Below, in pieces: positions 42,033 to 59,488 of a DNA stretch of 64,000 bases; the stretch's first letter is position 1; each line of letters opens with the position of its first letter. The notes below the pieces were generated by a model. That model worked only from the letters and a program-made list of their open reading frames with translations. It searched no databases and was not told the origin of the DNA. This stretch comes from a bacterium (GTDB lineage Bacteria > Myxococcota_A > Bradymonadia > UBA7976 > UBA1532), in contig JAUHYW010000007.1 of assembly GCA_030426085.1 (NCBI GenBank), positions 62,001 through 126,000 of the forward strand, written 5' to 3'. The position numbers and the translations under genes were made by a program.

Positions 42033-44903
42033 TCACCCGCCGGTGAAGGCCTCGACGACGGCGGTCAGCGGCAGCGAGACGAGGGGCGCCCCGGCCCGCT
42101 CGATCGTGACCCGGTCGCCGCCGACCGCGCCGATGTCGGCCCACGGGACGCCATCGAGGTGCTCCGCGATGGCGTCCATGGCGTCCGGCGCGGCCTCGAT
42201 CAGATAGCGGGCGCCGCTCTCGGCGAAGAGCCGGGCGGTGGGGTCGGCGGTGTCGGCGGGCAGCTTCGCGAGGTCGACGGTGGCCCCGATCCGGCCGCCG
42301 AGGCACATCTCGGCCAGCGCGACGGCCAGCCCGCCCTCGCTGAGGTCGTGGCACGCGCGCACGTGGCCCCCGGCGATGCACCGGTGCACCGCGCGGGCCC
42401 GCGCCAGGGCGTCGGTCACCGGCGCCGGGGCGTACCCCCCGGGCGCGCCGAGCGCCTTGGCCAGCGCCGATCCGCCCAGCTCGGCCCGGGTGTCGCCGAC
42501 GACGATCAGGCGGTCGCCCGCGGCTTTCAGGTCGCTGGTGGTGGCGTGGGCCACGTCGGGCACGATGGCCATCGCCGTGATGAGGATGGTGCCCGGGATG
42601 GCGTGCCGCACCCCGTCGGCGTCGGCGTACTCGTTGTTGAGGCTGTCCTTGCCCGAGATGTACGGCGCCTCGAACGCCAGCCCCGCGTCGCGGCAGCCCT
42701 CGGCGCAGCGGGCCAGCCCCCCGAGGCGGTCGGGCAGCCGGGGGTTGCCCCAGCAGAAGTTGTCGATGAGCGACAGGCGGTCGGGGTCCCCGCCCACCGC
42801 GACGACGTTGCGCACCGCCTCGTCCACCGCAGCCCAGGCCATACGATAGGGGTCGAGCGGGCCGTAGTCGGGGTTGATGCCGCAGCCCAGCGCGACGCCC
42901 CGCTCGAGGCGGCCCCTCTGGCGGGCGGCGAGCGGCACGAGCACCGCGGCGTCGCCCGGCCCGTCGCCGGCCACGCCGACGAGCGGCTTGACCACCGTGC
43001 CGCCCTGCACCTCGTGGTCGTAGCGCCGGATGACGTCGGCCTTGCTGGCCACGTCGGGGCTGGCGAGCAGCCCGAGCAGCGCGGCGCCGGGGTCGGCGAC
43101 GGTCAGCGGCGCGGCGTCCACCGGCGGCGGCTGCCAGACCGCCTTCAGCGCGCGCCGGGGGATGCCGTCGTGCAGGAAGGCCCCCCGCAGCTCGCCGACG
43201 ACCGCGCCCCGGTGGCACACCCGCAGGATGCCATCGTCCCGGAAGTGTCCGATGACCGTGGCTTCGGCGGCGTGGGTCGCGCAGAGGGCATGCAGCGCCG
43301 GCAGGTTCTCGGGCGGCACGGCGAGCACCATGCGCTCCTGGGCCTCGCTGAGCCAGATCTCCCATGGCTGCAAGCCGGGGTACTTGAGCGGCACCGTCGA
43401 CAGCTCGACGTCGGCGCCGAGCGTCGCGGCCATCTCGCCCACCGCCGACGAGAGGCCGCCGGCGCCGCAGTCGGTGATCGCGGTGTACAGCCCGGCGTCG
43501 CGGGCGGCGATGACGACCTCCTGGGCCTGCTTCTCGTGGATCGGGTGGCCGATCTGCACCGCGCTGCCGGCGATGCGGCTCGTCTCGTGGGTCATCTCCA
43601 TCGACGAGAAGGTCGCCCCCCGCAGGCCGTCGCGGCCGGTGCGCCCGCCGAGCGCGACGATGGCGTCCCCCGGTCGGGGGTCGGTGCGGTGGCTGCCCCG
43701 GGGCAGGATGCCGACGCAGCCGCAGAAGACCAGCGGGTTCTGGGTGTAGCCCCGGGCGTAGCGCACCGCGCCGGCGACGGTGGGGATGCCCATCTTGTTG
43801 CCATAGTCTTCGATGCCATGCACCACGCCGGCGGCGATGCGCCGGGGGTGCAGCACGCCCTCGGGCAGCGCGTCGAGGTCCTGGGGCCCGAAGCAGAGCA
43901 CGTCGGTGTTGGCGATGGGCCGGGCGCTGACCCCGAGGATGTCCCGCACCACGCCGCCGACGCCGGTGTTGGCCCCGCCGAAGGGCTCCAGCGCCGAGGG
44001 GTGGTTGTGGGTCTCGACCTTGAGCGCGAGGTCGAGGTCGTCGTCGAAGGCCACGATGCCGGCGTTGTCGACGAAGGCCGAGCGGACCCACGGCTTGGCG
44101 ACGGCGTCGGTGACGACCCGCAGGCAGGACTTCAGCATGCCGTCGATGATCCGGCGCTCGATCAGCGATCCGTCGGCGGCCCGCTCTTCGAGGTCGATCG
44201 TCGCCCTGAACGTCTTGTGCACGCAGTGCTCGGACCACGTCTGAGCCAGCATCTCGAGCTCGAGGTCGGTGGGGTCGCGCTCGAGCCGGCGGTACTCGGC
44301 GCGGATGGCCCGCATCTCGACGACGTCCAGCGACAGCCGGCGCTCGGCGCTGATGGCCTCCAGGGCGGCGTCGTCGGCGGCGCGCAGGGGCACGATCGCG
44401 ACCCGGCCGTCGGCCTCGGCGGTGGGCGCGAACGGCGGGGGCAGGCGGCCGTCCACCGCCCACTGCTGCACGACGTCGTTGACCAGCGCGGCGGCGGCGG
44501 CGGCGACGGCGGAGGCCGGGTGGGCGCCGTAGACGGTGTAGCGGGTGCCGGTCGCGATCCGGGCGACGCCGTCGATACCCAGCGCCCGGGCGGCGCCCAG
44601 CAGGGTCTCGGCGACGCTGTCGGTCACGCCCGGCTTGGGGCTCACCTCGATGACGTGGCCCCCGGCGGGCGGGGCGCAGGGGGTGTCGGCGTCGGTCCAG
44701 GCGGCGGCCTCGATGACGTCGTCGACCAGGATGGCCCGCAGGTGCCGGCGGTCGGGGTCGCTCAGCGCGCCCTGCACCCAGAAGAGCCGGGTGATCACGA
44801 CCCGCTCGCAGGCCAGCCCCAGGCCGGCCAGCCGCGCGCGCACGTCGGCGGCGGCTTCGGTCGCGAAGCCGGGGCGGGCGGTGACTTCGATGCGATGTGC
44901 CAT
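42033..44903 (-). CDS. purL: Phosphoribosylformylglycinamidine synthase, PurS-PurL fusion
   Basis: ATP-dependent conversion of FGAR to FGAM, using ammonia from PurQ. The 956-residue protein has two PurS-like units at the N terminus (about 1-75, then 80-155 with VIEVSPKPGVTDS), followed by the PurL core: QTWSEHCVHKTF near residue 225, KVETHNHPSALEPFGGANTG, and the AIR-synthase-type ATP-binding halves with DLSEGGLAVALAEM near the end. There is no glutaminase domain; the partner PurQ is encoded at 53290. The layout lies between the small three-subunit PurS/L/Q type and the long single-chain enzyme. It is the last gene of the minus-strand purine operon, 40 bases after purH. Confidence 0.95.
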   Translation of the reverse strand: MAHRIEVTARPGFATEAAADVRARLAGLGLACERVVITRLFWVQGALSDPDRRHLRAILVDDVIEAAAWTDADTPCAPPAGGHVIEVSPKPGVTDSVAETLLGAARALGIDGVARIATGTRYTVYGAHPASAVAAAAAALVNDVVQQWAVDGRLPPPFAPTAEADGRVAIVPLRAADDAALEAISAERRLSLDVVEMRAIRAEYRRLERDPTDLELEMLAQTWSEHCVHKTFRATIDLEERAADGSLIERRIIDGMLKSCLRVVTDAVAKPWVRSAFVDNAGIVAFDDDLDLALKVETHNHPSALEPFGGANTGVGGVVRDILGVSARPIANTDVLCFGPQDLDALPEGVLHPRRIAAGVVHGIEDYGNKMGIPTVAGAVRYARGYTQNPLVFCGCVGILPRGSHRTDPRPGDAIVALGGRTGRDGLRGATFSSMEMTHETSRIAGSAVQIGHPIHEKQAQEVVIAARDAGLYTAITDCGAGGLSSAVGEMAATLGADVELSTVPLKYPGLQPWEIWLSEAQERMVLAVPPENLPALHALCATHAAEATVIGHFRDDGILRVCHRGAVVGELRGAFLHDGIPRRALKAVWQPPPVDAAPLTVADPGAALLGLLASPDVASKADVIRRYDHEVQGGTVVKPLVGVAGDGPGDAAVLVPLAARQRGRLERGVALGCGINPDYGPLDPYRMAWAAVDEAVRNVVAVGGDPDRLSLIDNFCWGNPRLPDRLGGLARCAEGCRDAGLAFEAPYISGKDSLNNEYADADGVRHAIPGTILITAMAIVPDVAHATTSDLKAAGDRLIVVGDTRAELGGSALAKALGAPGGYAPAPVTDALARARAVHRCIAGGHVRACHDLSEGGLAVALAEMCLGGRIGATVDLAKLPADTADPTARLFAESGARYLIEAAPDAMDAIAEHLDGVPWADIGAVGGDRVTIERAGAPLVSLPLTAVVEAFTGG

Positions 44904-44943
44904 GGTGGGTCTCCGATCGCCGGTGGCTCGGTGGCTCGGTGGC

Positions 44944-46446
44944 TCAGTGACGGAAGTGGCGCACGCCGGTGAAGACCATGGCCACGCCCAGCCGCTCGGC
45001 GGCGGCGATGACCTCGGCGTCGCGGATGGATCCCCCGGGCTGCACGACGGCCCGCACCCCGGACGCGGCGGCGGCTTCGAGGCCGTCGGCGAACGGGAAG
45101 AAGGCGTCCGAGGCGAGCGCGGCGCCCTTCGCCTTCTCGCCGGCCTGCGCCGCGGCGATGCGCACCGACTCCAGCCGGTTCATCTGCCCCGCGCCGACCC
45201 CGACGGTGGCCCGGTCGGCGGTGATGACGATGGCGTTGGACTTGACCGCCTTGACCGCCCGCCAGGCGAACACCAGCTCGGCCCGGGTCGCCTCGTCGAT
45301 CTCGCCGGCGACGGTCTGCCATGCGTCGGGCGTCGCGTCGCGGGTGTCGGGGCTCTGCATCAAGAGGCCGCCGCGCACGGTGCGCACCTGCGGCCCGTGG
45401 GGCGCGGCGAGGTCGAGCTGCACCGCCCGGCAGCTCTTCTTGCGCTTCGCCAGCCACGCCAGCGCGTCGGGCGAGAAGGCGGGCGCGGCGAGCACCTCGA
45501 CGTACAGCTTGCCGATGGCGTCGAGCAGCGGCACGTCGACCGGGCGGTTGACGGCGATGATCGATCCGAAGGCGCTGATCGGGTCGCTGGCCAATGCCTT
45601 GCGGAAGGCCTCGACGGGGTCGGCCCCGACCGCCAGCCCGCAGGGGTTGCTGTGCTTGATGATGGCCACCGCCGGCGCGTCGAACGGGTCGATGGCCGTC
45701 CAGGCGCCGTCGAGGTCGATCAGGTTGTTGTACGACAGCGCCTTGCCCCGCAGGCAGGTGAACGGCAGCGGGGCGCCGTCGACGCGGTACAGCGCGGCCT
45801 GCTGGTGGGGGTTTTCGCCATAGCGCAGCGACTGCGCCTGCTCGGCGGTCAGGGTGGTCCGGCGGGGCAGCCCGGCGGGGGCCTCGTCGAGCTGGTCGGC
45901 GAACCAGCGGGCGATCGCCGCGTCGTAGGCGTGGGTGTGGGCGAACGCCTTGGCCGCCAGCCGCCGCTTCTCGGCGGCGGTGGCCAGCCCGGCGAGCGGG
46001 TAGTCCTTCGGGTCGCACAGCACGGTGACGTGGGCGCAGTTCTTGGCCGCCGCCCGCAGCAGGGTCACCCCGCCGATGTCGATCTGCTCGATGGCGTCGC
46101 CGAAGGTCACCCCGGGCCGGGCGACGGTCTCGGCGAAGGGGTAGAGGTTGCAGACGACGACGTCGATGGGGCCGATGCCCTGCCCCTCCAGCTCGGCGAG
46201 GTGGGCCGGGCTGCGCTCGGCGAGGATGCCCCCGTGCACCGCGGGGTGCAGCGTCTTGACCCGCCCGCCGAGCAGCTCGGGGTAGCCGGTGAGGTCGCTG
46301 ACGGCGGTGACGGGCAGCCGGGCGTCGGTGAGGGCCCGGGCGGTGCCGCCGGAGGCGACGAGGTCGAAGCCGAGGTCGACGAGGCGGCGCCCGAGGTCGA
46401 CGAGGCCGGTCTTGTCGGAGACGCTGAGCAGCGCGCGGCGGTTCAT
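44944..46446 (-). CDS. purH: Bifunctional AICAR formyltransferase / IMP cyclohydrolase
   Basis: Last two steps to IMP. The 500-residue protein has the cyclohydrolase (MGS-like) domain at the N terminus (ALLSVSDKTGLVDLGRRLV, LASGGTARAL, GGRVKTLHPAVHGGIL) and the AICAR transformylase domain after about residue 190 (RYGENPHQQAALY, IIKHSNPCGLAVG with the catalytic Lys-His, SDAFFPFADGLE near the end). The start at 46446 (MNRRALLSV) has GGGAG upstream. It lies between purM (23-base gap) and purL. Length is slightly below the usual 510-530. Confidence 0.95.
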   Translation of the reverse strand: MNRRALLSVSDKTGLVDLGRRLVDLGFDLVASGGTARALTDARLPVTAVSDLTGYPELLGGRVKTLHPAVHGGILAERSPAHLAELEGQGIGPIDVVVCNLYPFAETVARPGVTFGDAIEQIDIGGVTLLRAAAKNCAHVTVLCDPKDYPLAGLATAAEKRRLAAKAFAHTHAYDAAIARWFADQLDEAPAGLPRRTTLTAEQAQSLRYGENPHQQAALYRVDGAPLPFTCLRGKALSYNNLIDLDGAWTAIDPFDAPAVAIIKHSNPCGLAVGADPVEAFRKALASDPISAFGSIIAVNRPVDVPLLDAIGKLYVEVLAAPAFSPDALAWLAKRKKSCRAVQLDLAAPHGPQVRTVRGGLLMQSPDTRDATPDAWQTVAGEIDEATRAELVFAWRAVKAVKSNAIVITADRATVGVGAGQMNRLESVRIAAAQAGEKAKGAALASDAFFPFADGLEAAAASGVRAVVQPGGSIRDAEVIAAAERLGVAMVFTGVRHFRH

Positions 46447-46469
46447 GGCAGGGCTCCCATGGGTCGGTG

Positions 46470-47531
46470 TCATCGGAGGTCGAGGGGCGGGTGGAAGACG
46501 ACCGGGTCGATGCCGCGGCGCTCGATACGGCCGACGATCCAGTGGTCGGTGCCGGCGGCCATCAGGGCCCCCCGCGCCAGCGGGATGTGTTCGGCGGGCA
46601 GCGCGACGAGCAGGCCCAGGCCGCAGTTGAAGACCCGCAGCATCTCGGCGGGCTCGATCTTGCCCAGGTCGCGCAGCCAGCGGAACAGCGGGGGCGTCGG
46701 CCACGCCTCGCGGTCGAGGGCGAGGGCGAGCCCGTCGGGCAGGATGCGGGGCGGGTTGTCGATCAGGCCGCCGCCGGTGACGTGCACCAGCCCCCGGATG
46801 TCGACCCCGGCGGCGCGCAGGCTGCGCACGTCGCCCAGGTAGCTGCGGTGGGGTTCGAGCAGCAGGTCGATCGGGGCGGCGCCGTCGAGGGCCTCCTCGG
46901 GGGCTTCGAGGTCGAGGTCGAAGGGCTCGAGCACATGCCGGATCAGCGAGTAGCCGTTGGTGTGCGGGCCCGACGAGGCCAGCCCGATCACCGCGTCGCC
47001 GGGCGCGAGGCGCGATCCGTCGATGATGGCGTCCCGCTCGACCGCGCCGACGATGGTGCCCACGACGTCCAGCTCGCCGTCCCGGTAGACCCCGGGCATC
47101 TCGGCCGTCTCGCCCCCCAGCAGCGCGCAGCCGGCGGCTTTGCACGCGTCGGCCATGCCCCCGACGACGGCGGCGACGTCGGCCGGGGCGAGCTTCGCCG
47201 AGGCGACGTAGTCCAGGAAGAACAGCGGCTCGGCCCCCTGCACGAGGATGTCGTTGACGCAGTGGTTGACCAGATCGACCCCGACGCCGGCCAGCCGGCC
47301 GTAGCGGGCGGCGAGGCGGACCTTGGTGCCGACGCCGTCGGTGGAGGCGGCCAGCACCGGGCGGGCCATGTGGGCCAGGGCGCCGAGGTCGAAGAGCCCG
47401 CCGAAGGCCCCCACCCCGGCCAGCACCGCCGGGCCGTGGGTCGCGGTGACCGCCGACTTCAGCAGCTCGACGGCCCGGGCTCCGGCGTCGATGTCGACCC
47501 CGGCGTCTGTGTAGCGCGCTGACTGCGACAT
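46470..47531 (-). CDS. purM: Phosphoribosylformylglycinamidine cyclo-ligase (AIR synthetase)
   Basis: ATP-dependent ring closure of FGAM to AIR. The 353-residue product shows YTDAGVDIDAGARAVELLK at the start, LAASTDGVGTKVRLA, NDILVQGAEPLFFLDY, CALLGGETAEMPGVY and HVTGGGLIDNPPRIL, all classic PurM segments. The ATG at 47531 (MSQSARY) agrees with the usual N terminus and is 7 bases after the purF stop; the longer frame would overlap purF. Confidence 0.96.
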   Translation of the reverse strand: MSQSARYTDAGVDIDAGARAVELLKSAVTATHGPAVLAGVGAFGGLFDLGALAHMARPVLAASTDGVGTKVRLAARYGRLAGVGVDLVNHCVNDILVQGAEPLFFLDYVASAKLAPADVAAVVGGMADACKAAGCALLGGETAEMPGVYRDGELDVVGTIVGAVERDAIIDGSRLAPGDAVIGLASSGPHTNGYSLIRHVLEPFDLDLEAPEEALDGAAPIDLLLEPHRSYLGDVRSLRAAGVDIRGLVHVTGGGLIDNPPRILPDGLALALDREAWPTPPLFRWLRDLGKIEPAEMLRVFNCGLGLLVALPAEHIPLARGALMAAGTDHWIVGRIERRGIDPVVFHPPLDLR

Positions 47532-47538
47532 GGCTGGC

Positions 47539-48993
47539 TCAGGCTCCGTGGATGTCTTCGAATTGCAGCTTGGTGGTGCCATCTTCGAGCGAGATGGGGT
47601 AGTCCCCGTCGAAGCACGCCGAGCAATAGCCCCGCTCGGCGCTCTCGGCCCGCACCACCTCGAGCATGCCCGCCCGCGAGAGGTAGGCCAGGCTGTCGGC
47701 GCCGATGTGGGCCCGGATCTCTTCGACCGACTTCTGGTGGGCGATGATCTCGTCGTGGGTGCCGAGGTCGACGCCCATGAAGCACGGGTGGCGCACCGGC
47801 GGCGAGCTGATGCGCACGTGCACCTCGGCCGCGCCGCCGTCCCGCAGGAGCTGCACCAGCGGCCCGGCGGTGCTGCCCCGCACGATGGAGTCGTCGACGA
47901 GCACCACCCGCTTGCCTTCGAGGTTGGCCCGCAGCGGGGTGTACTTGAGGCGCACCTTGTCCTTGCGCAGCTTCGCGTCGGGCTGGATGAAGGTGCGGCC
48001 GATGTAGCGGTTCTTGATCAGCCCCTCGATGTACTCCAGCCCCGCGCCCCGGGCGAAGCCGATGCCGGCGGGCAGCGCCGAGTCGGGCACGCCGACGACG
48101 ATGTCGGCCTCGACCGGGGACTCCTGCGCCAGCCGCTCGCCGAAGCGCTGCCGCAGCAGGTGCACAGAGCGGCCCTCGAGGTCGCTGTCGGGGCGGGCGA
48201 AGTAGACGTACTCGAAGACGCACATCGCCGGCGTCGGCAGCGCGGCGGGGTCGCGCCACGACTCGACGCCCCGGGGGCCGACCCGCACGATCTCGCCCGG
48301 CTCGACGTCGCGCACGTAGCGGGCGCCGATGGGCGGCAGGGTGCACGACTCGCTGGCGACGATGTACCCGGTGCGGCCGTCGTCGAGCGGCAGCTCGCCG
48401 ATGCACAGCGGGCGGAAGCCATGGGGGTCGCGCACGGCGAAGATGCCGTCCCGGGTGAGGACGGTGAGGCTGTAGGCCCCCTCGGCGACCCGCAGGAGCC
48501 GCTGGAGGCGCGGGACCCAGATGGGGTGCGCGGGCGTCGGCTCGGGGGCGCCGGCCACCGGCACCGCGAGGGCTTGCAGGGCGAGCTCGCTGTCGCTGGC
48601 GGTCGACAGGCCGACGCCTTTCTCCAAGAGCAGCCGGCGCAGGGTGCGGGCGTTGGTGATGTTGCCGTTGTGGGCCAGCCCCAGCGGGCCGTGCAGCGTC
48701 TGGAGCACGAACGGCTGGGCGTTGCGCAGGGTCGTCGCGCCGCGGGTCGAGTAGCGGTTGTGGCCGATGGCGGCCCCCCCGACGAGCGGGCGCAGGTCGT
48801 CCTCGGTGAACGCCTGGGTGACGAGCCCCAGGCCCCGGTGGGTGAACACCCGCTCGCCGTCGGTGGTGGCGATGCCGGCCGACTCCTGGCCCCGGTGCTG
48901 GAGGGCGTAGAGCGCGAAGAAGGTCAGCCGGGCGACGTCGGCGCCCGGGGCCCAGATGCCGAAGACGCCGCACTCGTGCTTCGGGCCGCTCAT
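47539..48993 (-). CDS. purF: Amidophosphoribosyltransferase, iron-sulfur type
   Basis: First committed step: PRPP and glutamine to phosphoribosylamine. The 484-residue protein has a short propeptide before the N-terminal nucleophile (MSGPKHE then Cys8-GVFGIW), LQHRGQESAGI, and the PRPP-binding motif VVLVDDSIVRGST. The four iron-sulfur Cys positions known from Bacillus PurF are present in CVFEYVYFARPDS, HPCFMGVD and YCSACF (two), so it is the [4Fe-4S], oxygen-sensitive class with a cleaved propeptide. It is 25 bases after the purCE stop. Confidence 0.96.
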   Translation of the reverse strand: MSGPKHECGVFGIWAPGADVARLTFFALYALQHRGQESAGIATTDGERVFTHRGLGLVTQAFTEDDLRPLVGGAAIGHNRYSTRGATTLRNAQPFVLQTLHGPLGLAHNGNITNARTLRRLLLEKGVGLSTASDSELALQALAVPVAGAPEPTPAHPIWVPRLQRLLRVAEGAYSLTVLTRDGIFAVRDPHGFRPLCIGELPLDDGRTGYIVASESCTLPPIGARYVRDVEPGEIVRVGPRGVESWRDPAALPTPAMCVFEYVYFARPDSDLEGRSVHLLRQRFGERLAQESPVEADIVVGVPDSALPAGIGFARGAGLEYIEGLIKNRYIGRTFIQPDAKLRKDKVRLKYTPLRANLEGKRVVLVDDSIVRGSTAGPLVQLLRDGGAAEVHVRISSPPVRHPCFMGVDLGTHDEIIAHQKSVEEIRAHIGADSLAYLSRAGMLEVVRAESAERGYCSACFDGDYPISLEDGTTKLQFEDIHGA

Positions 48994-49018
48994 GACTGCC
49001 TGGCTCCCGGCGCGCGCT

Positions 49019-50488
49019 TCACTGGCCGGCCCGCTCGGCGGCGAGCTGCGCGTCGGCGGCGTAGAGGGTCTCCTGCCGCCGCCGCTGGCTGGCCCGGACC
49101 CGGTCGGCGGTGCGCCGGTCCCCCACCCCGAGGATCTTGGCCGCGAGCAGCGCCGCGTTGCCCGGGTCGAGCACGACCCCCGGGGCGACGCCCGACGGCA
49201 TGCGCAGCGAGCTGAAGATGTCGGCCCCGCCGAAGCTGCTCGACGTGGGCGGGCAGGCGATGACCGGCGCGGCGACGTGCCCGTCGACGAGCCCCGACAG
49301 CGCGTTGGAGCGGCCGGCGATCGTCACGTAGACCTTGGGCCGGGGGTCGCGCTCGTATTCGCCGAGGATCTCGAGGCAGCGCGCGGCGACCTTGTGGGCC
49401 GAGGCGACCCGGATCTCGCTGTCGATGCCCAGCTCGGCCAGGGCCCCGGCGATGGCTTCGCCGTGCGGCCGGTCGCTGGCCGATCCCATGATGATCGGCA
49501 CCAGCGGGCGGTCGGCGTCGAGCATGCCGTCGATGCCGTCGGCCAGGGCGTGCTCGACCCGGGCCCGCGCCGGCTGGGCCCCGTAGGCGAACCGCTGGCC
49601 GGTCAGCTTCTCGAACAGCGTGATGTAGCGCTGGGCGACCTCGGCCCGGATGGCGTCGGTCAGCGCCGGGGGCGGGCCGTCGCCGCCGTAGCCCCGGGCC
49701 TTGAGCCACAGCCGCAGGTGCTCTTTGTCGAACTGCTGCGGGGCCCGGCCCTCGGCCAGCGCGGCGGCGTAGCTCTCGGCGACCCAGTAGCGGCTGGAGT
49801 CGGGGGTGTGCACCTCGTCGATGAGGCACAGCCGGCCGTCGATGAGGCCGAACTCGTACTTGGTGTCGACCAGGATCAGGCCCGCCCGCTCGGCGATGCG
49901 CTGGCCCCGCTCGAAGATGGCGATCGCCGCCGCGCACACCTCGCGCCACAGCGCCGGCTCGACCAGCCCCCGCTCGACGACCTCGTCGGCGGTGAGCCGC
50001 TCGTCGTGCTGCCCCTTGGCGGCCTTGGTGGTCGGGGTGATCACCGGCGCCGGCAGGCGGTCGTTCTTGCGCAGGCCCGCGGGCAGGTCGAGGCCGTACG
50101 GGCGCTCGACGCCCTGCTCGTAGAGGGTCCACAGCGAGGTCGACGTCGAGCCGGTGATGTAGCCCCGCACGATGACCTCGACCGGCAGCGGCGCGGCCTC
50201 GCGGGTGATCATCACGTTGGGATCGACGACGTCGACCATGTGGTGGCCGACCACGTCGGCGAGGTGCTCGAACCACCACGCGCTGAGCTGGGTGAGCACC
50301 TGCCCCTTGAACGGGATGGTGCCCAGCACCCGGTCGAAGGCGCTCACCCGGTCGGTGGTGACGAGCACCCGGTGATCGCCGACGACGTACATGTCGCGCA
50401 CCTTGCCTTCGTGGCGCGCGCCGAGGCCGGGCACGTCGACCCGGTCGAGGGCGTGGGGCAGCGCGTTCGAGATGATGGCATCAGTCAT
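49019..50488 (-). CDS. purCE: Fused SAICAR synthetase and class II AIR carboxylase (PAICS-like)
   Basis: A 489-residue fusion in the order of vertebrate PAICS. Residues 1-300 are SAICAR synthetase: GKVRDMYVVGDHRVLVTTDR, SAFDRVLGTIPFKG, VEVIVRGYITGS, LILVDTKYEFG. Residues 325-489 are PurE: VPIIMGSASD, RVASAHK, then TIAGRSNALSGLVDG and PVIACPP. The GRSN motif in place of the bacterial class I GAAHLPG is the mark of class II PurE, which carboxylates AIR with CO2 directly and needs no PurK; none is present here. The PurC part is of the bacterial/yeast rather than animal type. The start at 50488 overlaps the purB stop by 8 bases. Confidence 0.93.
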   Translation of the reverse strand: MTDAIISNALPHALDRVDVPGLGARHEGKVRDMYVVGDHRVLVTTDRVSAFDRVLGTIPFKGQVLTQLSAWWFEHLADVVGHHMVDVVDPNVMITREAAPLPVEVIVRGYITGSTSTSLWTLYEQGVERPYGLDLPAGLRKNDRLPAPVITPTTKAAKGQHDERLTADEVVERGLVEPALWREVCAAAIAIFERGQRIAERAGLILVDTKYEFGLIDGRLCLIDEVHTPDSSRYWVAESYAAALAEGRAPQQFDKEHLRLWLKARGYGGDGPPPALTDAIRAEVAQRYITLFEKLTGQRFAYGAQPARARVEHALADGIDGMLDADRPLVPIIMGSASDRPHGEAIAGALAELGIDSEIRVASAHKVAARCLEILGEYERDPRPKVYVTIAGRSNALSGLVDGHVAAPVIACPPTSSSFGGADIFSSLRMPSGVAPGVVLDPGNAALLAAKILGVGDRRTADRVRASQRRRQETLYAADAQLAAERAGQ

Positions 50489-51899
50489 CGGATGGCTCCT
50501 GGAGGGTGGCGGTCATGAGAGCGGCCATGCGGCGGGCCCGGTTCGGGGCGTCGCCCACGTAGTCCCGGGCGTCGAGGCAGCGGCGGATGGCGTCGGGTGG
50601 CATGAGGGCTTCGAAGGCCGGCTCGCCGACGAGGCGCGCGACGAGCGGGTTGGCCGCGCCGGCCTTCAGCGCGGCCCAGGCGGCCAGGGCGTGCCCCCGG
50701 ATGACTTCGTGCAGCGCCTGGCGGTCGCCGCCGCGCTTGACGGCCTCCATCAGCAGCCGCTCGGTGGCGGCGAACGGCCCGTAGGTCGCCATGAGCCGGG
50801 CCGAGGCGTCGGCGTCGATCCGCAGGCCGTCGATCAGGGTGTGGCCCCGGCGCAGCAGTTCGTCGGTGATCAGGCACGCCTCGGCGAGCACCGTGCGCCG
50901 GTTGGCCGAGTCGTCCAAGGTGCGCTCGAGCAGCGTATGGGACGCGTTGTCCCACGCGACCCGGGGCAGCGCGGCGAGGTGGCGGGCGAGGCTGTCGATG
51001 TTCTCGGCGTCGATGGGGTTGCGCTTGAAGGGCATCGCGCTCGACCCGACCTGCCTGGCGCCGAAGGGCTCGGCCCACTCGCCGATGGTCGGGGCTTGCA
51101 GCAGGCGCAGGTCGAAGGCGAACTTGTACAGCGTCTGGCCCAGGCCGGCGAGGGCCGAGAGCAGCGCGTACTCCTGCTTGCGGGGCGCCACCTGCGTCGC
51201 GACGACGTGCGCGTCGAGGCCCAGGGCGGCCATGACGTGGGCTTCGAGGTCGGCCGGGGCCCGGTCGGTGCCTTCGAGGAGCTGGGCATAGCTGGCCGAG
51301 GTGCCGGTGGCGCCCTTGAGGCCCTTGCCCTTCAGCTCGGCCCGGCAGCGGCGCAGGGCCCGGCGGTCGTCGAGCAGATCCTGCCCGGTCTGGGCCAGGC
51401 GGTAGCCGGTGGTGGTGGGCTCGGCCGGCTGGAGGTGGGTGAAGCCCATCGTGGGGGCGTCGGCCCAGGTCGTGATCTGCGCGGCGAGGCGGCCGATGGT
51501 GGCGTCGAGCCGGGTCAGCAGCAGGTCGAGCGCGTCCCGCAGGCGCAGCACGTCGGCGTTGTCCTGCACGTCCATCGACGTCGCGCCGAGGTGGATGATG
51601 CCGCCGCCGACCGGGCACTGCTCGGCGAAGGTCTTCACCTCGGCCATGAGATCGTGGCGGATGTCACGCTCGATGGCCTGCGCCCGCTCGATGTCGATGT
51701 CATCCACATGGGATCGCAGGTCTTCGACCTGAGCCTGCGTGACGAGGCCCGCGTCGCGCTGAGCGTCGGCCAGGGCGACCCAGATGCGGCGCCACAGGCG
51801 GCGCTGGTGGGCGAGGCTCCAGACGCGGCGCATCTCGGGGGAGCCATAGCGCCAGGTGAACGGCGACAGGAAGGTCTCGTGGGTGAAGGCTTCGCTCAT
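50481..51899 (-). CDS. purB: Adenylosuccinate lyase
   Basis: Cleaves SAICAR to AICAR and adenylosuccinate to AMP. The 472-residue fumarase/aspartase-superfamily protein has [39 protein letters not shown] with the catalytic His, and the signature [17 protein letters not shown] with the catalytic Ser loop. The ATG at 51899 overlaps the TGA of purA (ATGA), and its own stop overlaps the purCE start, so translation is coupled on both sides. Length and motifs match the bacterial/animal PurB branch of about 470 residues. Confidence 0.95.
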
Positions 51900-53206
51900 C
51901 GCTCGACCCCCGGGGTCAGGCCCTCGACGCCGTAGGTGTCGAGCACGACCAGCTCGCCGCGGCCGGGGCCCACCGAGACGTAGCGGATGGGCGCCCCGGC
52001 CAGCTCGGCGATGCGGTGCAGGTAGGCCCGGGCGGCCTTGGGCAGCTCGCGCCACGTCCGCACGTCGCGGGTGGGGGTCATCCAGCCGGGCCAGGTCTCG
52101 TAGATCGGCTCGACCCGCTCCAGGTCGGGGGTGTCGGGCAGGTGGTCGATGGTCTGGCCGTCGAGCCGGTAGCCGGTGCAGAGCCGGATCTCTTCGAAGC
52201 CGTCGAGCACGTCGAGCTTGGTCACCGCCAGCGCGGTGAAGCCGTTGAGCCACGAGGCGTAGCCGATCGAGACCCCGTCGAACCAGCCGCAGCGCCGGGG
52301 GCGGCCGGTGGTCGCGCCGTACTCCTTGCCCACGTCGCGCAGCCGCGCGCCGTCGGTATCGGTCAGCTCGCAGGGGAACGGGCCCCCGCCGACGGCCGTG
52401 CTGTACGCCTTGACCACGCCCAGCACGGTGTCGATGGCGTTCGGCGGCAGGCCGGCGCCGCTGTAGGCCCCGCCCGCGGCCGGGTTGGACGAGGTCACGA
52501 ACGGGTAGATGCCCCAGTCCAGGTCGCGCATGACGCCGAGCTGGCCCTCGAGCAGCACCCGCCGGCCGCCCTGCACCGCGTCGCGGATGAGCGGCACGGT
52601 GTCGACGATGCGCCCGCCGAGCGCGTCGCCCCAGGCCAGGCAGCGCTCGATGAGGGCGTCGCCGTCGATGGGCGGCGCGCCGAGCTCGGCCAGCGCCCGG
52701 TTGCGGGCGGGCAGGGTCTGCCGCAGCCGCCGCTCGAGCCACTCGGGGCGGGTCAGATCACCCAGCCGCAGGCCGATGCGGGCCGCCTTGTCGGCGTAGG
52801 TCGGGCCGATGCCCCGCTTGGTGGTCCCGATCTTGTCGGCCCCGCTGCGGGCGGCCTCGGCCAGCGCGTCGAGCTGGGGGTGCTGGGGCAGCACGACGTG
52901 CGCCCGGCGGGCGAGGCGGAGGTTGTCCAGCGCCAGCCCGGCGTCGCGCAGGGTCTTCATCTCGGCCAGCAGGTTGGCCGGGTTGACCACGGCGCCGGCG
53001 CCGACGATGCAGACCGTGTCCGGGTTGAACACGCCCGACGGGATCATGTGCAGGGCGAACTCGCCGAAGTCGTTGACCACGGTGTGGCCCGCGTTGTCTC
53101 CGCCCTGGAACCGCACGACCATGTCCGCCCGCTGGGCGAGGTAGTCGACGACCCGTCCTTTGCCTTCGTCGCCCCACTGGGCGCCGACGACCGCGGTGAC
53201 CGGCAT
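51896..53206 (-). CDS. purA: Adenylosuccinate synthetase
   Basis: GTP-dependent condensation of IMP and aspartate to adenylosuccinate, the first step to AMP. The 436-residue protein has the P-loop-like [62 protein letters not shown] and [20 protein letters not shown] (53214-53218) lies 7 bases before the ATG. The usual EGAQGTxLDxDxGTYP is altered to [16 protein letters not shown], a mild divergence. It is unusual that purA is inside the IMP operon, next to purQ. Confidence 0.94.
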
Positions 53207-53289
53207 TGTCCATCTCCTGTGCGCCGGCGCGGGCCGGCTGTTCGGGCGGCCGCCCGGCCCGCGGCCGGAGGGCGGCCGCGGTTCGTGGT

Positions 53290-54075
53290 TCAGGTCTGCG
53301 CCGCGTGGCGCACCCCCGCCGCGAAGAGCGGCGTGCCGAGGCCGCCCCGCGCCACGCGCGGGCGCTGGGCCGGTCGCAGGTGGTCTTCGGGGTGGGGCAT
53401 GAGGCCCATCACCGTGCCCGACGGGCTGCACATCGCGGCGATGGCCCCCTGCGATCCGTTGGGGTTGTCGGGGTAGCCCGGCGCGCCCGCCCGGCCGACG
53501 TAGCGCAGCGGCGCCTGCCCCGCCGCCTCGATGGCGGCCAGCGCCCCGGCGTCCCGGGCGACGAAGCGGCCTTCCCCGTGGGCCACCGGGCAGGCGATGG
53601 GCCCGGTCAGCTCGCGGGTGAAGACGCAGCGGCTCTTGGGATCGGGCGCGAGGGTGACCCAGCGGCACTCGAAGCGGCCCGAGGCGTTGTGGGTCAGGGT
53701 CGCCGCCGGCCGCTCGCTCCAGATCGCGCCGGGGGCGTCGCCCGGGCCGGGCAGCAGGCCGGCCTTGAGCAGCACCTGGAAGCCGTTGCAGATGCCGAGG
53801 ACCGGGCGCCCGGCCTCGACGAAGCGCTCGATGGGGCCCCGCAGGCGGTGGCGCAGGGCCATGGCCCACGCCCGCCCGGCGCCGAGGTCGTCCCCGTAGG
53901 AGAAGCCGCCGGGCAGGATGAGCATGCGGTAGTCGGCGAGATCGCGCTCCCCGGCGAGCAGCGCGGCGACGGGCACGATCTCGGGGGCGCCGCCGGCGGC
54001 CGTGACGGCCTCGGCCGCTTCGTGATCGCGGTTGGTGCCGGGGGCGTGCAGGATGAGGATCGGTGGCCGGGACAC
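53290..54075 (-). CDS. purQ: Phosphoribosylformylglycinamidine synthase, glutaminase subunit
   Basis: Class I glutamine amidotransferase that supplies ammonia to PurL. The 261-residue product has the N-terminal [35 protein letters not shown], the nucleophile elbow [19 protein letters not shown] with its Cys, [10 protein letters not shown], and the C-terminal His-Glu pair in GLMPHPEDH. It is the first gene of the minus-strand purine operon and is divergent from purD. Confidence 0.96.
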
Positions 54076-54243
54076 GGACTTTGCTCCTCGATGCTCGCGG
54101 CCCGGATCGGGCAGCGAGAGAGCGGCGATCTAAACGGGTCCGGTGGCGGAGCGGCGCCCCGACGGTGACAATCTGATGGCGCGATTCGGGGTGGACAGCG
54201 CGGGGAATGGTCGGTATCGAGCAGCCGACGAGCAGGAGACCCC
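54076..54243. promoter_or_regulatory. Divergent purine regulatory region (purQ operon / purD-purN)
   Basis: These 168 bases separate the two divergent purine operons and must hold both promoters, so one regulator here could control the whole pathway. The centre (GATCTAAAC at about 54127 and GACAATCTGATGG at about 54167) is less GC-rich than the flanks. I see no purine riboswitch aptamer and no PurR-type palindrome. AGGAGAC at 54234-54240 is the purD ribosome binding site. Confidence 0.45.
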
Positions 54244-55539
54244 ATGCAGAACCTCGAGATCCTCTTGATCGGCGGCGGCGGGCGGGAGCACGCGCTGGCC
54301 CGGGCCCTGTGCCGCTCGCCGAAGGTCCGCCGGGTGCACGTCGCCCCGGGCAACGGGGGCACCGACGGCGACCTCGAAGGGCGGGTCGTCAACGCGCCGC
54401 TGGCTGCCGACGACCTCGACGGCCTGTTGGCCTTCGCCCGGGCCCGGGCGATCGATCTGACCGTCGTCGGCCCCGAGGCCCCGCTGGTGGCGGGCGTCGT
54501 CGACCGCTGGACCGAGGTCGGCCTGCGCTGCTTCGGCCCCACCGCCGCCGCCGCCCGCCTCGAGGGCTCGAAGGCGTTCGCCAAGGACTTCATGCGGCGC
54601 CACGGCATCCCCACCGCCGAGAGCGGCACCTTCACCACCGTCGGGCCGGCCGAGGCGTGGATCGACGCGGCCCCGTTCCCGGTCGTCGTCAAGGCGTCGG
54701 GGCTGGCGGCGGGCAAGGGCGTGCTGCTGCCCGAGACGAAGGACGCGGCGAAGGTCGCGGTGCGGGCGATGCTCGAAGGCGGGGCGTTCGGCGGGGCCGG
54801 GGCCGAGGTGGTCGTCGAGGAGCGGCTGGTCGGCGAGGAGGTCTCGCTGCTGGCGCTGTGCGACGGCGAGACCGCGGTCTGCCTGCCGCCGGCCCGGGAT
54901 CACAAGCGCATCGGCGACGGCGACACCGGCCCCAACACCGGGGGCATGGGCGCGTTCGCCCCGACGCCCGCCCTGGACCCCGAGACGCGGGCCCGGGTCG
55001 AGCGGGACGTCATCCAGCGCACGGTCGACGGCATGCGGGCCGACGGATCGCCCTTCAGCGGCGTGCTCTACGCCGGGCTGATGCTCACCGCCGATGGGCC
55101 CAAGGTGCTGGAGTACAACTGCCGCTTCGGCGACCCCGAGGCCCAGGTGCTGCTGCCGCTGCTGGAGAGCGACCCGCTCGAGGCGTTGCAGGCGTGCGTC
55201 GACGGCCGCCTGAGCGCCACGCGGCTGACGATCTCGACCGACTGCGCGGCCACGGTGGTGCTGGCGTCGGCCGGCTACCCGGGCAAGTACGCCAAGGGGG
55301 TGACGATCGAGGGCATCCCCCAGGCCGAGGCGGCGGCGCACACCACGGTGTTCCACGCCGGCACCCGGCGCACGACGAGCGGCTGGCAGACCCACGGCGG
55401 GCGGGTGCTGGCGGTGACCGGGCGCGGCCCCGATCTCGACGCGGCGCTGAAGCGGGCCTACGCCGGGGTCGAGCAGATCCGGTTCGAGGGCGCGCAGTAT
55501 CGGCGGGACATCGGCCGGGCCACGGGCGGTGGGCGATGA
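54244..55539 (+). CDS. purD: Phosphoribosylamine-glycine ligase (GAR synthetase)
   Basis: Joins phosphoribosylamine and glycine with ATP. The 431-residue ATP-grasp protein has the N-terminal [38 protein letters not shown], the ATP-grasp stretch [36 protein letters not shown] and [14 protein letters not shown] good AGGAGAC precedes the ATG. Its TGA overlaps the ATG of the next gene (ATGA). It is the first gene of the plus-strand purine operon. Confidence 0.97.
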
Positions 55540-56729
55540 GCGCGCCCCGCACCCGCCCCGAGGGGCTGCCCCGCGTCGCCGTGCTCGTCTCGGGCAACGG
55601 CAGCAACCTGCAAGCCCTGATCGACGCCGCCGCCGATGGCCGGATCGCCGGTCGGATCGTCGTGGTCGTCAGCAATACGCGCGCGGCGTTCGGCCTGCGG
55701 CGGGCCCGCTCGGCGGGCATCCCGACCCGCGTCCTGAGCCACCGCCGCTTCGCCGAGCGCGCCGACTACGACGCGGCCCTCGGGGCGACGGTCGCCGAGC
55801 ACGCCCCCGATCTGGTGGTGCTCGCCGGCTTCATGCGGGTGCTGGGGCCGGCCTTCCTGCGGCGCTTCGGCGATCGGGTGCTCAACCTGCACCCGGCCCT
55901 GCCCGGCGCCTTCCCCGGCACCCGGGCCATCGAGCGCGCGTGGCGGGCGGCGCGGGCCGGCGAGATCACGCACACCGGGGTCATGGTGCACCGGGTCATC
56001 GAAGAGGTCGACGCCGGACCGGTGCTGGGTACGGCTCGGGTCGCGATCGACGCCGACGCCCCGCTGGACGCGCTCGAGTCTTCGATGCACGCCGCCGAGC
56101 ACGCCTTGCTGGTGCAGGTCGTCGCCGCGGAGTGCGCCCGCCTCGGCCCGGAGCGGGCCGCGGACGCCGGGCTGGTCTGGCCCATCACCCGGGCGGTCGA
56201 CACGGCTGACGGCTTCCGGGTCTTCACCGTCGACCGCCACGTCGCCCAGCACCCGCAGACCGCCGCCGAGCGCACGTTCTCGGTCATCCGCTCGACCGAC
56301 TGGGTCAACGTGATCGCGCTGACCGACGACGGGCGGGTCGTGCTCGTGCGCCAGTTCCGCCACGGGGTGGGTGCGGTCACGGTCGAGATCCCGGGGGGCA
56401 TGGTCGATCCGGGCGAGCGCTTCGTCGAGGCCGGGGCCCGCGAGCTGCGCGAAGAGACGGGCTTCGAGGCCGACCGCTGGATGGACATCGGCTGCGTCGA
56501 GCCCAACCCGGCGATCCAGGACAACCGCTGCGGCACGGTGCTCGCCCTCGGCGCCCGGCGGGTGGCCGATCCGTCGTTCGACGCGGGCGAGTTCATCGCG
56601 GTGCAGACCGCCGAGCTGAGCGCGGTGCGGGGCATGATCGCCCGGGGCGAGATCCAGCACGCGCTGGTCGTGGCGGCGTTCTTCCACTTCGTGGAGCACG
56701 CCGGGGGCTGGCGGATGCCCCGGGCGTAG
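55536..56729 (+). CDS. purN: GAR formyltransferase (PurN) fused to a Nudix hydrolase
   Basis: A 397-residue two-domain protein. Residues 10-205 are folate-dependent GAR formyltransferase: VAVLVSGNGSNLQALI, the catalytic Asn-His of VLNLHPALPGAFPG, and the Asp of EEVDAGPVL. After a short linker, residues 225-397 are a Nudix hydrolase of the ADP-ribose pyrophosphatase type: VVLVRQFRHG, a complete Nudix box at 288-310 (GMVDPGE, then RELREETGF) and EPNPAIQDN. The frame is continuous with no internal stop, so it is one polypeptide. The ATG overlaps the purD stop. Normally PurN is a single-domain protein of about 200-220 residues; the Nudix partner may clean up a damaged or side-product nucleotide of the pathway (inference). 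Confidence 0.93.
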   Translation: MSAPRTRPEGLPRVAVLVSGNGSNLQALIDAAADGRIAGRIVVVVSNTRAAFGLRRARSAGIPTRVLSHRRFAERADYDAALGATVAEHAPDLVVLAGFMRVLGPAFLRRFGDRVLNLHPALPGAFPGTRAIERAWRAARAGEITHTGVMVHRVIEEVDAGPVLGTARVAIDADAPLDALESSMHAAEHALLVQVVAAECARLGPERAADAGLVWPITRAVDTADGFRVFTVDRHVAQHPQTAAERTFSVIRSTDWVNVIALTDDGRVVLVRQFRHGVGAVTVEIPGGMVDPGERFVEAGARELREETGFEADRWMDIGCVEPNPAIQDNRCGTVLALGARRVADPSFDAGEFIAVQTAELSAVRGMIARGEIQHALVVAAFFHFVEHAGGWRMPRA

Positions 56730-56831: not shown

Positions 56832-57863
56832 GTGCAACCCATCTTTCATCACCCCGACGGCCTGTACTGCCCGCAAGCCGGCGCTTTCATCGACCCCCTC
56901 GTGCCGGTGAAGCGGGCGCTGCTGACCCATGCCCACGCCGACCACCTGCGACCCGGCAGCGACGCATACTGGTGCGCCGCGCCGGCCGAGGCGCTGGTGC
57001 GGCGGCGGGCGGGCCCCGACGCGACCATCCACCCGGTGCCATACGGCAAGGCGATCCCCATCGGACGCCTGACCGTCTCGTGGCATCCGGCGGGGCACAT
57101 GCTGGGATCGGCCCAGATCCGCGTCGAGCACCGGGACGCGGTGTGGGTGGTCTCGGGGGACTACAAGCGGGCGGCCGATCCCACCTGCGCCCCGTTCGAG
57201 ACGGTGCCATGCGATGTCTTCGTCAGCGAAGCCACGTTCGGCCTGCCCATCTTCCGCTGGCCCGACCCCGAGGCCGTGGTGGACGAGATCATCGCGTGGT
57301 GGCGGGCCGGCGCCGCCGAGGGGCGCCCGTCGGCGCTCTTCGCCTATGCCTATGGCAAGAGTCAGCGCATCCTGGGTCACCTCGCCCGGCGGGCGTTGCC
57401 GGGTCCCATCTGGCTGCACGGCGCGGTGCAGGGCGGGGTCGACGCCTACCGGGCGGCGGGGGTCGCGCTGGCCGACACCGCCGGGCTCGTGGTCGACGCC
57501 GAGCCGGCCGATCTGAAACGCGCGCTGGTCCTGGCGCCGGTCTCGGCCGGGGGATCGCCGTGGATGAAGCGGCTGAAGCGGGCGCAGACCGGGTTCGCCT
57601 CGGGCTGGATGCGCATCCGGGGCAACCGACGGCGCAAGGGCTACGATCGGGGCTTCCTGCTGAGCGACCACGCCGACTGGCCGGCGCTCCTGCGCACGAT
57701 CGAGGAGAGCGGGGCCCGCCGGATCCGCTTCTGGCCGGGGCACGGCGAGGCGTTGGGCGATCTGCTGCGCGAGCGGGGGCGCGACGCCGGCCCGCTCGAG
57801 CGATGGCCGGGGCGCGATCCGCTCACCCCCTCCCCGCCGGACCGGCCCTCGGAGGTCGCGTGA
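56832..57863 (+). CDS. Ligase-associated DNA exonuclease (metallo-beta-lactamase fold)
   Basis: A 343-residue metallo-beta-lactamase/beta-CASP protein found beside ATP-dependent DNA ligases. The N terminus HHPDGLYCPQAGAFIDPLVP is typical, followed by zinc motif I LLTHAHADHLRPG, motif II HPAGHMLGSAQI, motif III VSGDYK, and the SEATFGLPIFRWP and FAYAYGKSQRIL segments of the family. The GTG at 56832 has a CGGAG six bases upstream, whereas the longer frame to 56802 has none, so I use 56832 with some doubt. Its TGA overlaps the GTG of the ligase gene. It probably processes 3' ends for the ligase in a repair pathway. Confidence 0.88.
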   Translation: MQPIFHHPDGLYCPQAGAFIDPLVPVKRALLTHAHADHLRPGSDAYWCAAPAEALVRRRAGPDATIHPVPYGKAIPIGRLTVSWHPAGHMLGSAQIRVEHRDAVWVVSGDYKRAADPTCAPFETVPCDVFVSEATFGLPIFRWPDPEAVVDEIIAWWRAGAAEGRPSALFAYAYGKSQRILGHLARRALPGPIWLHGAVQGGVDAYRAAGVALADTAGLVVDAEPADLKRALVLAPVSAGGSPWMKRLKRAQTGFASGWMRIRGNRRRKGYDRGFLLSDHADWPALLRTIEESGARRIRFWPGHGEALGDLLRERGRDAGPLERWPGRDPLTPSPPDRPSEVA

Positions 57864-59488
57864 AGCGCTTCGCCCGCCTGTACGCCCGCCTCGACGCCAC
57901 CCGCTCGACGCGGGCCAAGGTCGCCGCGATGGCCGACTGGTTCGCCAAAGCCCCGCCGGCCGACGCCGCGTGGGCGGTGTATCTGCTCGCCGGCCGCCGG
58001 CTGAAGCGCACCGTGGCCCCGAGCGCCTACGCCCGGTGGGCGGCCGCGTCGGTCGGGGTGCCCGAGTGGCTCCTGAGCACCAGCCACGCGACGGTCGGCG
58101 ACACCGCCGAGACGGTCGCGCTGATGATCGACACCGCCCGACCCACGCCGACCGACGCCGACGGCGTCGCCGATCGCCCGCTGGCGGCCTGGATCACCGA
58201 GCACCTGCGCCCGCTGGCCAAGGCCGACGACGAGCAGAAGCGGGCAGCCCTGAGCGGATGGTGGGCGGCCCTGCCCGCCGACCAGCTCTTCCTGCTGGGC
58301 AAGGTGCTCACCGGCGCGCTGCGGGTGGGCGTCTCGCGCAAGCTCGTCGTCCGGGCGCTGGCCCGGTGCGCCGAGGCGCGCGACGCGCCGGTGGACGAGG
58401 CGGTGATCCTGCACCGGCTCACCGGCGACTGGTCGCCGTCGGCCGCGTTCTTCGAAAGCCTGCTCGCTCCGCCCGAGGACGGCACCCGCCCGCCGTCTCA
58501 GCCCTACCCCTACTTCCTGGCGACGCCGGTGGACGACGCCGGCCCCGAGGGGCTGGGCCCGCGCGCCGAATGGCAGGCCGAGTGGAAGTGGGATGGCATC
58601 CGGGGTCAGCTCATCCGCCGGGGGGGCGAGGCGTGGCTGTGGTCCCGAGGCGAAGAGCTGGTGACCCCCCGCTTCCCCGCGGTGGTCGAGGCCGCCGCCG
58701 GGCTGCCCGACGGCACGGTCCTCGACGGCGAGCTGCTGGCCTGGCGGGACGGCGCGCCCCTGCCCTTCGCCGAGCTTCAGCGGCGGCTGAACCGCAAGCG
58801 CGTCGGCAAGACGTTGCTGGCCGAGGTCCCGGTGGCGTTCATGGCCTACGATGTCATGGAGCGCGGCGGAGAAGACATCCGGGCGCGGCCGCTGGAGGAG
58901 CGGCGGGCCGCGCTCGATGCCATAGTCGAGTCACTGGGCCATCCCCGGCTGATGGCATCTCCCATCCTCGACGGCGACACCTGGCAGGCGCTGGCCGAGG
59001 CCCGCGAGTCCGCGCGGGATCGGCGGGTCGAGGGGCTGATGCTCAAGCGGCGGGGCAGCCCCTATCGCGCCGGCCGGCCGCGGGGCGACTGGTGGAAGTG
59101 GAAGCTCGATCCGCTCACCGTCGACGCGGTGCTGATCTACGCTCAGCCGGGCAGCGGGCGCCGGGCGACGCTGCTGACCGACTACACCTTCGGCGTGTGG
59201 CGGGGCGATACGCTGGTCCCGTTCGCCAAGGCCTACTCCGGGCTGTCGGACGCCGAGATCACCGAGCTGGATCGCTGGCTGCGATCCCACACCCGGGAGA
59301 AGTTCGGGCCCGTCCGGGCGGTGGATCCGGAGCAGGTCTTCGAGATCGCTTTCGAAGGCATCCGCCGCAGCACCCGCCACAAGTCGGGGGTCGCGGTGCG
59401 CTTCCCCCGTATGGTCCGCTGGCGGCGGGACAAGCCGGCGGCCGAGGCCGACACGCTCGCGGCGGTCGAGGCGCTCATCGAGGGCTGA
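57860..59488 (+). CDS. ATP-dependent DNA ligase
   Basis: A 542-residue ATP-dependent DNA ligase. Residues 1-200 are the helical DNA-binding domain; the nucleotidyltransferase motif I is EWKWDGIRGQ with the adenylated Lys, then motif III VLDGELLAW, motif IV VEGLMLKRRGSPY and motif V WWKWKLDP. A C-terminal OB-fold completes the enzyme (FGVWRGDTLVPFAKAYSGL, VAVRFPRMVRWR). The start is a GTG with GGAGG four bases upstream; the GTGA overlap couples it to the exonuclease. It is the standard length for this bacterial ligase group. The helicase (Lhr) and phosphoesterase (PdeM) often found next to this pair are not present here. Confidence 0.94.
   Translation: MKRFARLYARLDATRSTRAKVAAMADWFAKAPPADAAWAVYLLAGRRLKRTVAPSAYARWAAASVGVPEWLLSTSHATVGDTAETVALMIDTARPTPTDADGVADRPLAAWITEHLRPLAKADDEQKRAALSGWWAALPADQLFLLGKVLTGALRVGVSRKLVVRALARCAEARDAPVDEAVILHRLTGDWSPSAAFFESLLAPPEDGTRPPSQPYPYFLATPVDDAGPEGLGPRAEWQAEWKWDGIRGQLIRRGGEAWLWSRGEELVTPRFPAVVEAAAGLPDGTVLDGELLAWRDGAPLPFAELQRRLNRKRVGKTLLAEVPVAFMAYDVMERGGEDIRARPLEERRAALDAIVESLGHPRLMASPILDGDTWQALAEARESARDRRVEGLMLKRRGSPYRAGRPRGDWWKWKLDPLTVDAVLIYAQPGSGRRATLLTDYTFGVWRGDTLVPFAKAYSGLSDAEITELDRWLRSHTREKFGPVRAVDPEQVFEIAFEGIRRSTRHKSGVAVRFPRMVRWRRDKPAAEADTLAAVEALIEG

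Follow-up and report, generated by a model that had tools for sequence, protein, structure and literature searches.

A rare in-frame fusion of PurN to a Nudix hydrolase at the edge of a bacterial purine gene cluster

The gene described in this report joins a GAR formyltransferase (PurN) to a Nudix hydrolase in a single reading frame, and the fusion is both real and rare. It lies at positions 55536 to 56729 on the plus strand of a 64,000-nucleotide stretch of bacterial DNA (contig JAUHYW010000007.1, positions 62,001 to 126,000; here called the window) and encodes 397 aa from ATG to TAG. Both families are known, and what is new is their combination. The analysis shows the fusion itself, its presence in a second species, and the fold and catalytic motif of each half. 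The explanation we favor is that the protein is probably bifunctional, having arisen by in-frame fusion of purN to a formerly separate Nudix gene, with activities that are largely independent of each other.

The frame from 55536 to 56729 has zero internal stops in the ORF translation, and third-position GC is 0.90 to 1.00 in all 40-codon blocks of the gene, junction included, which indicates one coding frame throughout. The ATG of the fusion overlaps the stop codon of purD in an ATGA (55536 to 55539, plus strand); purD lies upstream in the same presumed operon (54244 to 55539, plus strand; TIGR00877, 517.6 bits), and the order is the same in the one other genome of the genus (the congener, G006). 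The junction, placed by the structural model and a start-codon scan, occupies residues 206 to 216 (56151 to 56183, plus strand), where the end of the PurN C-terminal helix is followed by a linker of about 7 to 10 residues. Over residues 181 to 260 the scan found in-frame start codons at 184, 191, 193, and 259 only, leaving none at residues 194 to 258. It is unlikely that the Nudix half is also translated on its own, since each of these starts sits in either the Nudix core or the PurN helix and has no obvious Shine-Dalgarno sequence. An earlier note on this DNA had described a single uninterrupted frame, and its coordinates are exact; the stop or frameshift near codon 210 that it considered is contradicted by the congener, whose fusion has neither.

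The PurN domain, delimited by TIGR00639 and by its match to the solved structure 3av3, covers residues 12 to 205 (55569 to 56150, plus strand). This enzyme, GAR transformylase, converts GAR and 10-formyl-THF to FGAR and THF. The PurN equivalog TIGR00639 scores 206.7 bits over residues 13 to 198, against a cut-off of 150.1. Catalytic Asn117 and His119 of the NxH motif (55884 to 55892, plus strand) were assigned by alignment with the E. coli and Coxiella enzymes, and Asp159 (56010 to 56012, plus strand) aligns as the equivalent of E. coli Asp144; the GAR formyltransferase motifs are thus complete, as had been claimed. In the AlphaFold model, the PurN half matches 3av3 with a Z score of 29.4 and an rmsd of 1.1 A over 188 residues (fusion residues 10 to 201). 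Besides the fused PurN, no PurN scores above cut-off in the window genome or the congener, and a profile search found no PurT above its cut-off in either.

The second half, residues ~212 to 396 (56169 to 56723, plus strand), is a complete Nudix protein that includes the ADPRase-group N-terminal subdomain, as indicated by the match to Ndx2 and by alignment with standalone orthologues. Pfam NUDIX (PF00293) gives 50.3 bits against a cut-off of 21.1 over fusion residues 257 to 322, and the Nudix box GMVDPGERFVEAGARELREETGF (GX5EX7REUXEEXGU) sits at residues 288 to 310 (56397 to 56465, plus strand), exactly where it had been placed before. The closest structural match is Thermus thermophilus Ndx2 (2yvm; Z score 22.9, rmsd 2.5, 181 of 182 residues, model residues 212 to 395), followed by the NDPSase of B. 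bacteriovorus and then the ADPRase of Mycobacterium tuberculosis. The beta-phosphate residue Arg275, the post-box Pro325, and Glu352 (56589 to 56591, plus strand), which aligns with Glu142, the catalytic glutamate of loop L9 in the M. tuberculosis ADPRase, all have counterparts in that enzyme and, partly, in the T. thermophilus ADPRase.

The determinants of substrate choice are less typical. Base recognition in ADPRases depends on an Arg-Glu dipeptide of strand beta3 (PMC4629899); at these positions the fusion has Phe-Ser in the alignment to the M. tuberculosis ADPRase, and the standalone orthologues likewise align without the dipeptide. The Asp-X-Lys on helix alpha3 that marks NDP-sugar hydrolases (PMC4629899) is absent from the Nudix half, which has His-Ala-Leu at residues 375 to 377 in the alignment made through Ndx2, and the NudE equivalog (NF008736) reaches 56.9 bits, under its cut-off of 169. 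Since the Nudix half is of the ADPRase type by fold and by sequence and has no NDP-sugar motif, cleavage of ADP-ribose to AMP and ribose-5-phosphate would be a fair guess; ADP-ribose is the best single candidate substrate, at roughly even chances, and it is unproven because the base-binding dipeptide differs. The label "ADP-ribose pyrophosphatase type" given in the earlier note therefore stands as regards fold, sequence relatives, and the lack of the NDP-sugar motif, and goes too far if read as naming the substrate.

The AlphaFold model, built from a 40-sequence alignment, has a mean pLDDT of 94.4 and a pTM of 0.73, which makes the fold of each domain reliable but not the relative orientation of the halves. 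Residues 177 to 209 form the PurN C-terminal helix, and the Nudix half has its first strand from residue 217; a linker, for which structure prediction had been suggested, is thus present and short. In alignments, standalone PurNs of the same (short-form) type stop near residue 200, whereas the equivalent of residues 209 to 213 is where standalone Nudix orthologues start, so two complete proteins have been joined nearly end to end.

The fusion protein of the congener is 75% identical along its entire length, and its gene has the same context, with purD and purN-Nudix divergent from purQ-purA-purB-purC-purF. Downstream of the fusion the two genomes differ, which makes the fused gene the shared edge of the purine cluster. 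The catalytic residues named above are identical in the two species. In a crude Nei-Gojobori comparison, dN/dS was 0.37 in the PurN part and 0.31 in the Nudix core, which suggests purifying selection on both halves; the N-terminal part of the Nudix half, where base recognition would lie, gave 0.76.

Among the matches listed for the order (16 genomes), the class (57), and the phylum (379), those spanning both halves came only from the window genome and the congener, the phylum being represented by best matches down to about E 1e-36, so that a much-diverged fusion could escape. Phyla beyond this one were sampled through a species collection and plasmid records: the best 80 loci of the 84,980-species collection include no PurN-Nudix fusion, all being PurN alone, and 0 of 158 matching plasmid records cover 80% of the fusion protein. 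One match on a Subdoligranulum plasmid (OY725879.1, L198:1492-2844), spanning residues 14 to 277, was rejected, as this PurN of 450 aa has no Nudix box in its C-terminal extension, which looks like an archaeal-type IMP cyclohydrolase (PurO). No paper describing a PurN-Nudix fusion was found among the 5.39 million open papers searched. The searches gave no second lineage for the combination, and the earlier remark that no standard PurN is known to have this form agrees with its confinement to a single genus among the matches listed.

The surroundings of the gene are themselves of interest. Almost the whole purine pathway is gathered in one cluster at window positions 42033 to 56729, with PurL, PurH, PurM, PurF, PurC-PurE, PurB, PurA, and PurQ encoded on the minus strand, divergent from purD-purN-Nudix. 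The window PurL bears an N-terminal, PurS-like extension. PurC-PurE is a fusion of 489 aa (49019 to 50488, minus strand; PurC 11 to 316, PurE 330 to 482), the PurE part of which matches nearly the full profile at 122.6 bits, below the cut-off of 149.6. Directly downstream of the purN-Nudix gene, positions 56832 to 59488 hold two overlapping genes, one for a ligase-associated DNA damage response exonuclease (404.7 bits with TIGR04122) and one for a probable ATP-dependent DNA ligase; this pair is not downstream of the fusion in the congener. Relatives have further fusions: a PurN-PurH protein of 731 aa (L184:2506-4701, genome G198) that places both 10-formyl-THF-dependent purine steps on one chain, fusions of PurN to a PurL-type FGAM synthase in two different families (L185:3563-6937, G230, 1124 aa; L149:2086-5736, G056, 1216 aa), and frequent PurD-PurM fusions (L179:2774-5185, L183, L184, L185, L186, and L189). 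The last recall eukaryotic GART, in which the order is PurD-PurM-PurN. Taken together, PurC-PurE, PurN-PurH, PurN-PurL, and PurD-PurM indicate that the joining of neighbors is common in these purine clusters; the distinguishing trait of PurN-Nudix is a partner from outside the pathway.

The histories of the two halves seem to differ, as indicated by their placements in trees. In the PurN tree, a 100/100 branch divides the fused PurN from the family PurNs sampled (G001, G002, G004, G007, and G008), and the fused PurN groups with purine-cluster PurNs of other families, Chloroflexi, and some actinobacterial sequences; in the Nudix tree, the fused Nudix groups, with weak support, with the Nudix proteins of its own family. 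Sister genera of the family have both as separate genes, PurN at 43 to 46% identity, alone or in a purM-purN pair, and the Nudix at 52 to 58% identity in the best cases, adjoining rlmN-like or other non-purine genes. From these phylogenies, the resident Nudix gene of the family appears to have been joined to a purN of the cluster type, which may have been acquired, or kept, together with the purine cluster as a whole. Another family of the class has purD-purN or purQ<- ->purD-purN orders with no Nudix fused, which is likely the pre-fusion state. The window genome has 11 Nudix loci, of which the fused one alone was found by a protein query at E <= 0.001; the query thus detected no standalone copy of the fused Nudix there, and none of either half was found in the window genome or the congener. 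A neighborhood survey of ~30 standalone Nudix genes of relatives, with gene calls from a simple codon-usage script and unlabelled neighbors identified in part, found no purine genes beside them.

We therefore favor a simple account. In the ancestor of the genus, purN, lying second in a purD-purN pair, would have become joined at its end to a resident housekeeping Nudix gene. The N-terminal half would be the GAR transformylase of the cell, and the C-terminal half would keep the job of the standalone orthologues, presumably the metal-dependent hydrolysis of an ADP-ribose-type nucleoside-diphosphate compound to AMP and a phosphorylated sugar. The two activities, probably without strong coupling, would now be co-expressed with purine synthesis, and the protein may dimerize through its Nudix part. 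The non-purine neighbors of the standalone orthologues count mildly against an old functional link between this Nudix and purine synthesis. Against the favored account stand the Phe-Ser in place of the base-recognizing Arg-Glu and the weak tree support for placing the fused Nudix with those of its own family. In addition, the persistence of the fusion while the protein diverged by 25% could reflect selection for coupling rather than chance.

Such coupling might be metabolic, the Nudix half cleaving either ADP-ribose or some phosphoribosyl compound that is toxic or damaged, with ribose-5-phosphate or AMP returned or an inhibitor of PurN removed. The ADPRase-type fold, the catalytic residues, the lack of an NDP-sugar motif, and the presumed co-expression with purD-purN are all compatible with this, and there is a precedent for Nudix ADPRases that relieve an enzyme of inhibition by ADP-ribose: ACT of B. 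methanolicus destroys ADP-ribose in the service of methanol dehydrogenase (PMC12926040). We nonetheless consider it unlikely, because the Nudix orthologues of relatives are unlinked to purine genes, ribose-5-phosphate feeds PRPP several steps before PurN, and the base-binding dipeptide is changed. The earlier suggestion that the domain recycles ribose-5-phosphate or removes damaged nucleotides for the pathway gains no support, given the neighborhoods of the orthologous Nudix genes and the altered adenine-recognition dipeptide.

Coupling through regulation, with the Nudix half sensing a purine nucleotide and modulating PurN or recruiting it to other purine enzymes, seems less probable still. 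A sequence relative of the Nudix half, human NUDT5, binds and represses the purine enzyme PPAT independently of catalysis, with purine nucleotides such as AMP as glue (PMC12853130, PMC13421311), by means of a PPAT-binding loop and an AMP-contacting C-terminal tail (PMC13421311). The conservation of the catalytic residues indicates, however, that catalysis is probably still selected here; the partner is PurN, not PurF, and among the genomes searched a single genus has the fusion. The more specific analogy, in which the Nudix would serve as a covalent sensor of purines or ADP-ribose, controlling GAR transformylase or organizing a purine-enzyme assembly as a bacterial counterpart of NUDT5-PPAT, must be regarded as a long shot.

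Local house-cleaning for 10-formyl-THF enzymes, by hydrolysis of a folate-stress nucleotide (e.g., ZTP) or of a formylated or oxidized by-product, might be imagined from the position of the Nudix on such an enzyme and from the altered dipeptide, which permits other substrates; the two-subdomain form is ADPRase-like rather than that of a MutT-like NTPase, and relatives show no genomic link, so we judge it very improbable. Finally, although the contigs are from draft assemblies, an assembly or sequencing artefact fusing two genes is ruled out by the separate genome of the congener, with its own in-frame fusion in the same operon context.

The fusion can be compared with several known systems. 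It has in common with standalone PurN (TIGR00639; 3av3, 1cde) the whole fold, the NxH...D residues, and an operon with purD, but standalone PurN is ~195 to 215 aa long, whereas here the C-terminal helix continues into a second enzyme. The standalone Nudix orthologues (L083, L084, L085, and L086) are 52 to 58% identical end to end and have the same motifs; unlike the fusion, they are separate genes away from purine genes. The ADPRases Ndx2 (2yvm/2yvp) and Rv1700 (1mqw) share the fold with its N-terminal subdomain (Z scores of 22.9 and 19.6), the Nudix box, and the equivalents of Arg275, Glu352, and the SPG-type proline Pro325, but the fusion has Phe-Ser for Arg-Glu and PurN on the same chain. 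GART, PurN-PurH (L184), and PurN-PurL (L185 and L149) also place PurN on one chain with another protein; their partners are enzymes of the purine pathway, whereas Nudix is not a known member. If the halves are independent, the protein offers a clear case of recent fusion between the end of an operon and an unrelated housekeeping gene; if they cooperate, ADP-ribose-type metabolism would be tied to bacterial purine synthesis, alongside the recent work on human NUDT5-PPAT. The latter is the closest precedent for an ADP-ribose-type Nudix attached to an enzyme of de novo purine synthesis, but its link is non-covalent, made to the first enzyme of the pathway with AMP as glue, whereas that of the fusion is covalent and made to PurN.
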